Source: a virus. Taken from it: a DNA stretch of 30,992 nucleotides. The stretch lies in the IMG/VR virus record IMGVR_UViG_3300047287_000482, positions 1 through 30,992 of that record; one strand, given 5' to 3'. Made by a program: the position numbers and the translations under genes. Of this stretch, positions 4,097 to 14,566 are shown one piece after another. Below the pieces are notes generated by a model. That model did no database searches. It had not been told where the DNA came from and saw nothing but the letters and a program-made list of their open reading frames with translations. The stretch's first letter is position 1. Each line of letters begins with the position of its first letter.

Positions 4097-4119
4097 ACCT
4101 ATGCATTTTTCGCATAGGT
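4097..4119. promoter_or_regulatory. perfect 8-bp inverted repeat at gene end
   Basis: ACCTATGC (4097-4104) and GCATAGGT (4112-4119) are perfect inverted copies separated by 7 bases (ATTTTTC). The element abuts the stop codon of the gene read leftward from 4829. On that strand a T6 run follows only about 16 bases after the stem, which is too far for a textbook terminator. A dimeric repressor operator, or a loosely built terminator, are both possible. Confidence 0.45.
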
Positions 4120-4829
4120 TACGGCTTCGAGAGCAGCTCGATGAGGTCCTCCTCGGTGGAGGGGCCTTGGAGTGCGGCGCTGAGTGTGATGAGGTAAGGG
4201 AGCTCTCGCTGGAACTCCTCCCCAGTCCAGACCTGACCTTTGCCCATGAGGATCTCGTTGAGGCGGGTGCGGCGGGTGCCGGTTGGTTGGAAGTGCTCCT
4301 GGAGGATCTTCCCCAGGTCGTCGATCGGGTCGAAGCCCGCCGTGGCCATCTGCCGGCGGAGGAGGCGGGCGAGATTGCGGGTGAGCTGGGCTGCCTCGGC
4401 GTCTGAGTAGAAGGAGCCGCTCAGGTCGTACTCGGTGGGGACGCGGACTCCGGTGAAGACTTCGAACCACCAGCCCGGCGGTGGCGGGACACCGTCTTCG
4501 AGGATGACGAGGGGGTCGGAATAGTGGTTGCTGCTGGTCGTGCCGGGGACGAGAGTCCTGGTGGTGCGGTAGCGGTGCAGGTAGAAATTCAGCCGCTCGA
4601 TGGCGATGAAGGGCCGGGGGCCCGGGTTGTGGAGGCGGCCGTGACGGAAGCCGCTGATCTGGGAGCTGTGGAGCCAGCCGCAGCCGTCCAGGCAGCCACG
4701 CAGGAGCTGGGTCATGACCGGATGCGACCACTGGTTGCCGTCCATCCAATGCCTGAACAGCTGAGCGAAGTTCTTGATTCCTGTCTGGTACTGGCCGGCG
4801 TAGTCGAATTTTTCGGTCTGCTCAGACAT
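4119..4829 (-). CDS. possible DNA-binding regulator, unknown family
   Basis: A 236-residue protein that I do not recognise by name. ATG 4829 is preferred over an in-frame TTG at 4853 that would add eight residues; neither has a Shine-Dalgarno. Residues about 20-70 look like a helix-turn-helix region: an amphipathic helix FAQLFRHWMDGN, then LLRGCLDGCG, then LHSSQISGFRHGRLHNPGP, where the SSQISGFRHGRL part resembles a recognition helix. The C-terminal half (145-235) is mainly helical with many charged residues. The gene faces away from the primase gene, leaving a 243-base control region between the start codons, a layout typical of a regulator beside its target. Function is inference. Confidence 0.6.
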   Translation of the reverse strand: MSEQTEKFDYAGQYQTGIKNFAQLFRHWMDGNQWSHPVMTQLLRGCLDGCGWLHSSQISGFRHGRLHNPGPRPFIAIERLNFYLHRYRTTRTLVPGTTSSNHYSDPLVILEDGVPPPPGWWFEVFTGVRVPTEYDLSGSFYSDAEAAQLTRNLARLLRRQMATAGFDPIDDLGKILQEHFQPTGTRRTRLNEILMGKGQVWTGEEFQRELPYLITLSAALQGPSTEEDLIELLSKP

Positions 4830-5072
4830 GGGCGACCACTGCGTGTTGCTCAAGAGATAGGCGGGATTCTATAGGCGAGTCCGTTCTACAACAATGTGTA
4901 ACGCGATCTGGATGCTGTCCAGCTCGTTCACGATCTGGTCGGAGCCGGTAGGGTTGGGGTCCGGTCTCGGGGGCTGAGCCAGGGTCCCCCCGAACACGCG
5001 AAAGCCCGCCGGTCAGGGCGGGCTCTGCGCTCCAGCCGGGGCCGGAGTTCCAAATCACAACGTGAAAATAGC
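4830..5072. promoter_or_regulatory. divergent control region before primase gene
   Basis: This gap separates the leftward candidate regulator from the rightward primase gene. It holds a perfect 8-bp inverted repeat AGCCCGCC/GGCGGGCT (5003-5010 and 5017-5024, 6-base loop). Read on the minus strand the hairpin is followed by TTTCG; read on the plus strand there is no T-run. There is also a copy of CTCGGGG (4966-4972). A weak rightward promoter could be TTGCTC (4846-4851) with TATAGG (4870-4875), spacing 18. No ribosome binding site is visible before the primase ATG. Confidence 0.4.
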
Positions 5073-12711: not shown

Positions 12712-12930
12712 ATGGATCCGGCGGCCCGAGAGTTCATGCGGCAGGTGCAGTTCGATCTGCTGCGGCGGCTGGACACGATCGCAGCGCAGCTCCCCAATGG
12801 CGTGCTGCAGCGGTTGGTTGCCGACGCGGAGTTCTACCGAGCCTGGTCACGCGGCAAGAAGGATGCCCGGCGGACGGCGCGGCTGGCCCAGGCGCGGGCT
12901 CGGGGGCCGGTCAGGCGGCGGAGCGCTTGA
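12712..12930 (+). CDS. small basic hypothetical protein
   Basis: A 72-residue protein from ATG 12712, placed 15 bases after the terminator. A longer GTG frame from 12658 would translate the terminator stem and is rejected. The N-terminal 45 residues form one or two amphipathic helices (REFMRQVQFDLLRRLDTIA, LQRLVADAEFYRAW); the rest is Arg/Ala-rich and strongly basic (KKDARRTARLAQARARG), which suggests nucleic-acid binding. No known family. Its end overlaps the convergent excisionase-like gene by 20 bases. It must be transcribed either by read-through or from a promoter hidden in the terminator region. Confidence 0.5.
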   Translation: MDPAAREFMRQVQFDLLRRLDTIAAQLPNGVLQRLVADAEFYRAWSRGKKDARRTARLAQARARGPVRRRSA

Positions 12931-13201
12931 CACTCCTCGCCCTGTTCAGGAACTGGTTTACGGCCTTCACTCGGTGGAAGCGGTAGCGGGGCCGGAGTGG
13001 CGTGCCGATGTTCTTGATGGCGTCGCCGTGGATGATGCCCTTGGACATCTGGTAGGTCAGGGCTTTGGTGTCCTTGAGGCCCACCAGGCGACAGAACTCG
13101 GCTGAGGTCACCCAGTCGGCCTCGGGGGCTGGGCCGTGCAGCCGGATGAGCTGTTCCAGGTGGCCCTCGATGTCGTCGAGGCGGCTGAGGATTTCGTCCA
13201 A
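12911..13201 (-). CDS. excisionase-like HTH protein
   Basis: A 96-residue protein starting with TTG at 13201, the only reasonable start. After an N-terminal helical segment (EILSRLDDIEGHLEQLIRL), residues about 29-85 resemble a MerR/excisionase-type winged helix: WVTSAEFCRLVGLKDTKALT (the HTH), then a basic segment with RPRYRFHRVKAVNQFL. It lies directly downstream of the integrase in the same direction (39-base gap), the usual place for a recombination directionality factor. The role of tipping the integrase toward excision is therefore inferred from fold and context. It could instead be a repressor of the lysogeny module. Confidence 0.62.
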   Translation of the reverse strand: MDEILSRLDDIEGHLEQLIRLHGPAPEADWVTSAEFCRLVGLKDTKALTYQMSKGIIHGDAIKNIGTPLRPRYRFHRVKAVNQFLNRARSVKRSAA

Positions 13202-13240: not shown

Positions 13241-14278
13241 TCAAAGGGTCATGCCCTGCATGGCCCTCTGTATCCGGTCCGCTTCGATCCAGCGCTGGTA
13301 GGTCTGTTGGTGGACTTGCAGGCTGTGTCCCATGAGTCTTGCCCCGAGGTCGGCGGAGACGCCGCGGTCGAGGAGGCGGAGGGCGTAGGCGTGGCGGAGG
13401 TTGTAGGGCTTGATCGTGACGCCGTACCGGTCCAGGGCGTCGTTGAAGGCTTTGGTGATGGTTCGGGTGGCTTGAGGTGGCCGGGGAAGATCGCGGAGCG
13501 CCCAGGTGGTGACCCACGCGCTTGGGCAGGGGGTGACGCGGCGGGAGCCGGTTTTGGTGGCGTCGGCGATTTCGATCCAGTCGCCCTCGGGGAGCCACAC
13601 GAGGTCGGCGCATTCGTGGGGGCGGAGGCCGTAGGCGGCGCACATGCCCCAGGTCCATTTCCAATGGGGGAGGCGGATGGAGCGGAAGGCGGCCTCGATG
13701 GCGGCGTCGGGGGGAATGTCGCGCTCGGTGAGGCGGTCGACGCCGTAGCCGCGGCACGCGGCCAGGAGGGGTTCGTGGTCGAGGCCTAGGGATTTCGCCA
13801 CCTGGGCGAGCAGATTGCCTTGGTCCCGGCGGGAGGCGGAGCCTTCGGGCAGTTTGCGGATGCAGCGGAGCAGGACGGCCTCGGTGATCACCCCCGAGGG
13901 CGGGAGCTTGCGGAGGGCGGGGGCCCATTTCTTCGACCAGGCGGCAGCGCCGCGCTCGGGGGTCTTGAGGTACTTGGAGGCGTGGAGGCGGCGGGCAGCT
14001 TCTTGGAAGTCGGCGACGGTGAGGGCGGCCTGCTGCTCGGGGGCGTCCCAGAGGTCCCAGGAGAAGGTGCCCTTGCGGATCTGGTGCCCGAGCTCGATGG
14101 CCTTGCGTTCGGCCTCCACCACCTCCAGTTCACCGAGGGGGATGCGCTGTTGTTTTCGGCCCGTGCCGTCTCGTAGGGGCAGAGTGGCCACCAGGGAGAA
14201 GGTGCGACCACGCTGCTGGAGGGAGCAGCGAGCTCGGGTCGCTTTGAGGCGGGAGTTGGCGGCTTCCAGCTCGGACAC
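13241..14278 (-). CDS. int: tyrosine integrase
   Basis: A 345-residue tyrosine recombinase. The catalytic domain carries R219 (YGLRPHE), K242 (TKTGSR), R295 (YNLRHAY), H318 (LMGHS) and the nucleophile Y327 (QQTYQRW). The first His of the usual HxxR box is Tyr292, a change tolerated in many integrases. The N-terminal part (about 1-75) would bind arm sites, and about 85-180 is a core-binding helical domain. It starts with GTG at 14278; the first candidate arm-site repeat begins on the same base, so integrase binding could repress its own gene. The attP lies about 130 bases upstream. It should catalyse integration into the host tRNA-Pro(GGG) gene. Confidence 0.93.
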   Translation of the reverse strand: MSELEAANSRLKATRARCSLQQRGRTFSLVATLPLRDGTGRKQQRIPLGELEVVEAERKAIELGHQIRKGTFSWDLWDAPEQQAALTVADFQEAARRLHASKYLKTPERGAAAWSKKWAPALRKLPPSGVITEAVLLRCIRKLPEGSASRRDQGNLLAQVAKSLGLDHEPLLAACRGYGVDRLTERDIPPDAAIEAAFRSIRLPHWKWTWGMCAAYGLRPHECADLVWLPEGDWIEIADATKTGSRRVTPCPSAWVTTWALRDLPRPPQATRTITKAFNDALDRYGVTIKPYNLRHAYALRLLDRGVSADLGARLMGHSLQVHQQTYQRWIEADRIQRAMQGMTL

Positions 14279-14300
14279 CTGGCTTAAACCCTGGCTTAAA
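14278..14300. repeat. left candidate integrase arm sites, tandem pair
   Basis: CCTGGCTTAAA occurs twice as direct repeats 12 bases apart (from 14278 and 14290). The same CCTGGCTTA appears again on the other side of the attP core at 14520-14528. Direct repeats flanking a core are what lambda-type integrases bind with their N-terminal domain. Confidence 0.55.
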
Positions 14301-14310
14301 AGCCTGGTCA

Positions 14311-14334
14311 GGCTAGGTCCAAGCGGGCCTAGCC
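14311..14334. promoter_or_regulatory. inverted repeat upstream of int
   Basis: GGCTAGG (14311-14317) and CCTAGCC (14328-14334) are perfect 7-bp inverted copies with a 10-base centre, placed between the left arm sites and the attP core, in the expected control region of int. Candidate operator or accessory-factor site; no clear promoter boxes were found beside it. Confidence 0.35.
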
Positions 14335-14340
14335 AGCTTG

Positions 14341-14374
14341 AAACAGAAAAGCCGCCTCTAGGTGAGAAGCGGCT
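14341..14374 (-). terminator. terminator downstream of the tRNA-derived core
   Basis: On the minus strand AGCCGC (14374-14369) pairs with GCGGCT (14355-14350) around a 13-base loop and runs into TTTTCTGTTT. It lies 30 bases beyond the 3' end of the tRNA-Pro sequence in the attP core, in the orientation of that tRNA. After integration it would replace the host tRNA's own terminator and also shield int from tRNA transcription. Confidence 0.55.
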
Positions 14375-14404
14375 CAGGGACTGGGGTTACGGGATTTGAT
14401 TGGA

Positions 14405-14451
14405 TCGGAGCGACAGGATTTGAACCTGCGACCCCCACTACCCCAAAGTGG
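14405..14451 (-). other. attP: attP core: 3' half of tRNA-Pro(GGG)
   Basis: Read on the minus strand, these 47 bases are the 3' half of a tRNA-Pro gene: anticodon stem CCACT, loop TTGGGGT with anticodon GGG, closing stem AGTGG, variable region GGGTC, T stem and loop around GGTTCAAATCC, and the 3' acceptor strand CGCTCCG plus discriminator A ending at 14405. There is no D arm or 5' acceptor strand, so it is not a tRNA gene. Together with the adjoining integrase and flanking repeats this is the attP core; insertion would rebuild the host tRNA. Confidence 0.9.
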
Positions 14452-14483
14452 ATGTGTGACCCTAAGAAGGGCCGCTGAGACTG

Positions 14484-14531
14484 ATCTAAGCCTTCCGGGC
14501 GGCGCTGATATGGAGTAATCCTGGCTTAGAT
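14484..14531. repeat. right candidate integrase arm sites, inverted pair
   Basis: ATCTAAGCC (14484-14492) and GGCTTAGAT (14523-14531) are perfect 9-bp inverted copies, 30 bases apart. Both contain the GGCTTA hexamer of the left tandem repeats. The rest of 14452-14566 shows no gene. Confidence 0.5.
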
Positions 14532-14566
14532 GGCTGCCTAATCTGGGTGCAGTCTTGGGTTCTGAG

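Follow-up and report, generated by a model that had tools for sequence, protein, structure and literature searches.

The window, i.e. the whole stretch of DNA analysed here, comprises the 30,992 bases of the viral record G000. To the left of its att site, genes for a dCTP deaminase, an exonuclease, a PrimPol/helicase, a second helicase, a family A DNA polymerase and an AbrB-like regulator are located, together with those for a 96-aa protein and an integrase. To the right, genes for a C39/C70-type peptidase and fibre-like proteins as well as lambda-type tail genes follow up to a truncated tape measure. Since the att site is surrounded by phage DNA, it is placed as an attP would be. No head or packaging genes were seen in the window, so that the record looks partial. 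The first-pass annotation had taken the phage genes on both sides as a sign of the virion or circular form. While the genes on both sides do represent an unintegrated arrangement, the assumption of circularity goes slightly too far, since the 31-kb record comprises no terminal repeats and ends within the tape-measure gene. The features of the att region are as follows:

12911-13201, minus strand: putative excisionase of 96 aa, a conserved neighbour directly downstream of the integrase
13241-14278, minus strand: tyrosine integrase (P0001) of 345 aa, with PHROG_1, Pfam and AlphaFold fold matches
14278-14298, minus strand: integrase-side pair of arm-type repeats TAAGCCAGG (14278-14286 and 14290-14298), 12 bp apart and abutting the integrase start codon
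14349-14375, minus strand: intrinsic terminator after the tRNA half, with an 11-pair stem and a T run (-17.4 kcal/mol, z -2.7)
14405-14451, minus strand: 3' half of tRNA-Pro(GGG), an exact 47-mer match to cyanobacterial tRNA gene ends
14435-14451, minus strand: anticodon stem-loop CCACT-TTGGGGT-AGTGG, the presumed strict core and the only part common to both half types described below
14520-14541, minus strand: distal arm-type repeats, TAAGCCAGG at 14520-14528 (81 bp from the core) and the degenerate TTAGGCAGC at 14533-14541

Read on the minus strand, the 47-mer comprises the anticodon arm CCACT-TTGGGGT-AGTGG with the anticodon GGG at 14444-14442, followed by the variable loop GGGTC, the T arm GCAGG-TTCAAAT-CCTGT and CGCTCCG+A, i.e. 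the 3' acceptor strand and the discriminator base. Upstream of it, neither a D arm nor a 5' acceptor strand is present. This is the composition given in the first-pass annotation (anticodon arm, T arm and 3' acceptor strand present, D arm absent), and all of it could be read at 14405-14451. The attP holds the 3' part of the tRNA from the anticodon arm onwards, as in an anticodon-centred 3'-fragment tDNA element. ARAGORN called no tRNA in the window, which is expected since only a half gene is present, and Rfam and sigma-70 scans at the att site gave nothing useful.

A comparison with cyanobacterial genomes, as had been proposed, showed the 47-mer to be the exact 3' end of tRNA-Pro(GGG). A search of the GTDB genomes gave 46 stretches with the exact 47-mer. 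In 44 of these, the same 5' half precedes it and both together form an intact tRNA-Pro(GGG) gene, and the other two (L013 and L043) comprise a lone 3' half only. The genomes belong mostly to Cyanobium, Synechococcus and Vulcanococcus, with a few Leptolyngbya- and Acaryochloris-like ones. The sole non-cyanobacterial label among the 46 was that of L034 (CALPNT020000001.1), a MAG labelled Bifidobacterium breve; its contig matches a picocyanobacterial tRNA-Pro locus, and the bin label looks wrong or contaminated. The identity between the window and the host loci ends at the first anticodon-stem base and 1 base beyond the tRNA 3' end. Since the 47-mer is exact in 46 genome stretches, chance can be excluded and the observation of a tRNA half is real. 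Furthermore, the 44 intact cyanobacterial genes ending in it confirm the predicted host target, tRNA-Pro(GGG).

The integrase, rightly described as complete and adjacent in the first-pass annotation, is encoded by an open reading frame of 345 aa, with the half gene about 127 bp upstream of its start. It matched the PHROG_1 integrase with an E-value of 7e-10 and Pfam PF00589 with an E-value of 6e-6, the latter with 26.6 bits and therefore slightly below the curated cut-off of 27.1 bits. For an AlphaFold model calculated from an 11-sequence alignment (mean pLDDT 82, pTM 0.50), the best PDB match was lambda integrase (1z1g) over 344 columns, i.e. the full length. The model comprises an N-terminal domain of three strands (18-49) and a helix (53-69), followed by the core-binding and catalytic parts. 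Despite the Pfam score below the cut-off, the PHROG_1 match and the fold match support an assignment to the lambda-Int type, which is also indicated by the N-terminal domain, a putative arm-binding domain, in combination with arm-type repeats on both sides of the core. Across the 11 integrase homologues, R219, K242, R295, H318 and Y327 are invariant, and box II HxxR reads YxxR, with Tyr292 (Y292) replacing His in all 11 aligned sequences. Homologues of the 96-aa protein (35-72% identity) adjoin the integrase in every related phage examined for which that side is sequenced, and are also present in the integrated elements L108, L110 and L115. The homologue in L115 showed a weak HTH_17 match (E-value of 4e-4). 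Judged from the sequence, the 96-aa protein is probably an excisionase.

A search for elements at tRNA-Pro(GGG), likewise proposed in advance, revealed relatives with homologous integrases inserted there, bordered by a complete tRNA gene and a lone half, as well as empty sites in sister genomes. In Vulcanococcus limneticus LL (L009) and in a MAG near Synechococcus UW140 (L021), integrases with 50% and 51% identity to that of the window are located directly 3' of an intact tRNA-Pro(GGG), and decayed integrase copies were found at the same position in L030 and L031. V. limneticus LL and the UW140-like MAG each comprise one extra 47-mer, a lone half on a separate contig. The empty site for the V. 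limneticus element is represented by Synechococcus GreenBA-s (L044), in which the flanks are contiguous around the tRNA; compared to V. limneticus, the identity amounts to 90.5% upstream, ending 1 base before the tRNA, and to 75-93% downstream. For the UW140-like element, Baikal-G1 (L032) provides the empty site, with flanks of 94.8% and 86%, and both flank comparisons break exactly at the tRNA. Altogether, intact tDNA, displaced fragment and empty site are present for relatives whose integrases share 50-53% identity with that of the window. An element of about 80 kb, extending from the intact tRNA-Pro to the lone half on one contig, was found in G245 (contig C1, 686838-767310; L115, L209-L212), and its integrase is more distant (about 34-37% identity). 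This element carries DNA ligases, helicase/primase genes and a polymerase.

Among the genomes searched, no integrated copy was found, either of the window phage or of any relative with its tail genes. Tail gene J gave no match in four genomes with integrated relatives, a search that is uninformative without a positive control, and only 3 of 400 same-family genomes comprise a second 3' half. Since most distant integrases (~28-34% identity; L147-L167 and others) as well as the closer L141 and L113 have no tRNA-Pro half, the tRNA-Pro target is not universal. The integrase of L113 (G169 C49, 2847-3932) is 51-53% identical, has no tRNA-Pro half nearby, and the tRNA-Pro of its genome is intact elsewhere; this integrase may be a remnant or act at a different site.

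The arm-type repeats of 9 bp differ in sequence between phages, whereas within one site they match across the core. The relatives keep the repeat layout of the window with other sequences (TAAGCCAG, CGGTCCAC, TAGTCCA and TAGTGAACG). The repeats of a pair are 11-13 bp apart, corresponding to about one helical turn, and in most relatives ~81-83 bp separate the distal pair from the core. In a shuffle test covering 18 of 19 loci (L139 was left out), 0 of 40 shuffles were as good in 17 of the 18 sites, which included every phage site tested. Since the integrated L110, the distal side of which is host DNA, also beat the shuffles, though with a weaker score, this test is not decisive alone. Based on the repeat layout, the distal pair of an integrated element is predicted at attR, and in agreement with this prediction the attL of V. 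limneticus comprises no distal pair. In V. limneticus, the 23-mer ATCGGTCCACCATCCGGTCCACC occurs in two identical copies, one beside the integrase and one on a different contig, where it is located 66-78 bp upstream of the lone half. For the UW140-like MAG, TTAGGCAAGCC pairs are matched by AGGCAAGG pairs near -75, and TGCGTGTGAAT is common to both ends of the G245 element. In the distal arm of the window, inverted copies ATCTAAGCC/GGCTTAGAT were observed at 14484-14492 and 14523-14531. These overlap one arm-type site and represent a possible extra binding site.

The two integrated relatives with readable cargo, both of which are split over contigs, are defence islands. The V. limneticus element (L108, 437-7460) comprises integrase, 96-aa homologue, PrimPol and a homologue of window 4119-4853; next to these, type I restriction genes follow. 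One end of the UW140-like element comprises integrase, 96-aa homologue and PrimPol, and inside its lone-half end (L111, 4782-19208) DrmD, a Fic protein, DrmMI and DrmA were found (DISARM). Since phage and islands have the same attB, related integrases, an excisionase-like protein and PrimPol in common, they may compete for one chromosomal slot. The common slot and recombination module suggest either direct competition or a satellite-like use of phage machinery.

For a survey of the phage sites, those viral contigs were considered whose integrase reaches at least 60% identity and which extend upstream of this gene (n=27, near-copies included). All 27 showed a tRNA-Pro(GGG) half upstream of the integrase, which was the 3' half in 17 contigs and the 5' half in 10. 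The 5' half was determined for L052 7796-7838 (= L118), L054/L121, L122, L128-L131, L061 and L180. In L052, a NUMOD4/HNH endonuclease gene is located upstream of the 5' half. The 5' half of L122 (1601-1643) is diverged, with 8 mismatches and a loop of TGAAGGT compared to TTGGGGT, and possibly represents another target or a degenerate site. On the near side, the 5'-half contigs comprise integrase, excisionase-like gene, AbrB and polA in the order of the window, as well as PrimPol where the contig extends, and on the far side lysis or tail genes. Because of these far-side genes and the shared near-side gene order, the 5'-half loci are regarded as attP sites and not as host junctions. An interpretation as attL was ruled out by the upstream lysis or tail genes, the distal arm repeats and the same replication-side genes. 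No provirus carrying a 5' half was found in 400 same-family genomes, and for the two candidates with a duplicated 5' half (G126 and G385), the duplication was traced to MAG contigs present twice, in which the tRNA genes are intact.

The sole overlap of the 3'-half and the 5'-half attP sites is the anticodon stem-loop at 14435-14451, so that strand exchange must fall in this segment. With a loop of 7 bases enclosed by inverted arms of 5 bases, it would correspond to the overlap and core sites of lambda-type integrases; the nicking positions and the exact positions of strand exchange within 14435-14451 are putative. The first-pass annotation had equated the attP core with the whole 3' half. The attP as such stands, whereas the presumed strict core is narrower and corresponds to the 16-17 bp of this stem-loop, the remainder of the half restoring the gene.

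A terminator stem is located 60-64 nt past the anticodon loop in each of the 17 3'-half att sites considered, of which two are integrated, and its sequence varies between sites. In 2 of 3 5'-half sites, the terminator is found at 29-31 nt instead. The phage half supplies the tRNA 3' end together with the terminator, and the latter would keep transcription of the tRNA from reaching the integrase. Upstream of the phage 5' half, a host TGTGATAACTTC-like promoter is absent at the native place (scores of -35 to -45 compared to a host median of +23), and a promoter search up to 200 nt upstream gave weak best scores of 2-8.

A tree with the 5'-half integrases as one clade was rejected (lnL loss of 111, AU p of ~3e-44). 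Instead, they occupy two places in the tree, and at both of them a 3'-half phage is the highly supported sister. Two separate 5'-half clades imply either at least two switches of the half or an exchange of flanks between phages. Recombination between phages could also give the two-clade pattern, and the upstream flanks of the two 5'-half groups, which are similar in places, fit such an exchange. In the open-access papers searched, no integrase lineage was found for which a change between the two halves at a single crossover had been described. We regard the chances as evenly balanced that one integrase lineage with one anticodon-loop crossover has undergone at least two 3'/5' half switches, that lysogens of the 5'-half phages would have an essential tRNA under a phage flank, and that defence islands compete for the same attB.

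Altogether, it is assumed with a probability of about 0.93 that 14278-14541 is the attP of a temperate-type picocyanobacterial siphovirus, which recombines in the anticodon stem-loop of the host tRNA-Pro(GGG) and rebuilds the gene. In the proposed mechanism, the integrase (13241-14278) would bind the paired arm-type repeats on either side of the core and recombine 14435-14451 with the same stem-loop of the host tRNA-Pro(GGG). Integration would detach the host 3' half from its gene, and the phage 3' half with the terminator (14349-14375) would join the host promoter and 5' half. As a result, a complete tRNA gene would be rebuilt beside the integrase, and the displaced host half would mark the far end. 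The integrase of the window phage itself is presumed to be active. Points that count against this account are the lack of an integrated copy, the low number of genomes with a second 3' half (3 of 400), Y292, the degenerate second distal arm site, the imperfect control in the shuffle test and the T7-like cyanophages, in which integration does not entail stable lysogeny (PMC8776855).

The first of these points could also be explained by an integrase and attP that work, but only for a transient integration during lytic infection without a stable lysogen. The genomes searched yielded no prophage of the window phage, a classical repressor could not be recognised in the window, and for P-SSP7 and S-TIP37 integration at tRNA-Leu has been reported that does not lead to lysogeny (PMC8776855). 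However, the conserved excisionase-like gene, the arm sites and the tRNA restoration with terminator suit a stable residence, related elements are stably integrated, and an AbrB-like regulator is encoded nearby. An exclusively transient integration is considered rather unlikely. An origin of the contig from a prophage end or from a chimeric assembly, as might be supposed for a fragment without end repeats, is very improbable: integrase, excisionase-like gene, polA and PrimPol are located on one side and peptidase and tail genes on the other, independent viral contigs comprise the same replication-side genes, and the distal arm sites, which are absent from an attL, are present. Even less credible is a 47-mer left over from a phage-borne tRNA gene and without a role in integration. 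Although tRNA genes are common in phages and ARAGORN calls none here, all 3'-half relatives have their boundary at the anticodon stem, the distance from the anticodon loop to the integrase is conserved (~170-200 bp), and real integrated junctions use exactly the 47-mer segment.

With the attP interpretation, the insertion site of an uncultured cyanophage lineage is named and thereby its likely host group. The exact junction sequences can be used for the screening of genomes and reads. Moreover, a 3'/5' switch at one crossover offers a way into the question of how an attP acquires halves of host genes, and also bears on the phage takeover of an essential tRNA.

The occurrence of tRNA halves in attP sites is textbook knowledge. 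The window resembles the anticodon-centred islands of Islander class A in the tDNA fragment of the attP, in the intact tDNA and displaced fragment at the ends, and in the tyrosine integrase beside attL. In the Islander / Williams scheme, the 3'-fragment type is the common one, since 3760 islands with a 3' fragment were listed compared to 159 with a 5' fragment, and 2083 were anticodon-centred (PMC4383910); 5'-side recombination has also been described as rarer (PMC6563490). Compared to lambda, the domain layout of the integrase, the putative 7-bp overlap and the arm sites on both sides are alike, whereas the integrases share only ~16% identity and the window has a tRNA target and arm repeats in the form of direct pairs 11-13 bp apart.

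Within the phage collection, a similar integrase was found only in the cyanosiphovirus P-SS2 (27% over 45%). Its putative attP also includes part of a tRNA, namely 36 bp of tRNA-Met (PMC2784084). In contrast to the window, however, another tRNA is concerned, the host match is an intergenic copy, and no integrated relative was shown there. P-SSP7 and S-TIP37 likewise comprise an integrase and an attP whose sequence is identical to a section of a host tRNA gene, with integration shown by PCR, but are T7-like podoviruses that use the first (5') half of tRNA-Leu and form no stable lysogens (PMC8776855). In the papers considered, no inducible prophages are reported from Synechococcus or Prochlorococcus isolates (PMC6157547). 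In the isolated Planktothrix phage PaV-LD, a segment of 46 bp (L080, 5001-5046) matches this 3' half of tRNA-Pro(GGG) with 93.5% identity. A terminator-like stem comes after it, and the annotated integrase, which has the same orientation, is located downstream. This half is unannotated, and PaV-LD may also target tRNA-Pro(GGG), although its integrase gave no tblastn match to that of the window at an E-value of 1e-5. Since tRNA halves in attP sites are known from islands, P-SS2, T7-like cyanophages and PaV-LD, the attP of the window belongs to a known kind. Unlike the Islander islands, phages with related integrases show both the 3' half and the rare 5' half at one crossover.
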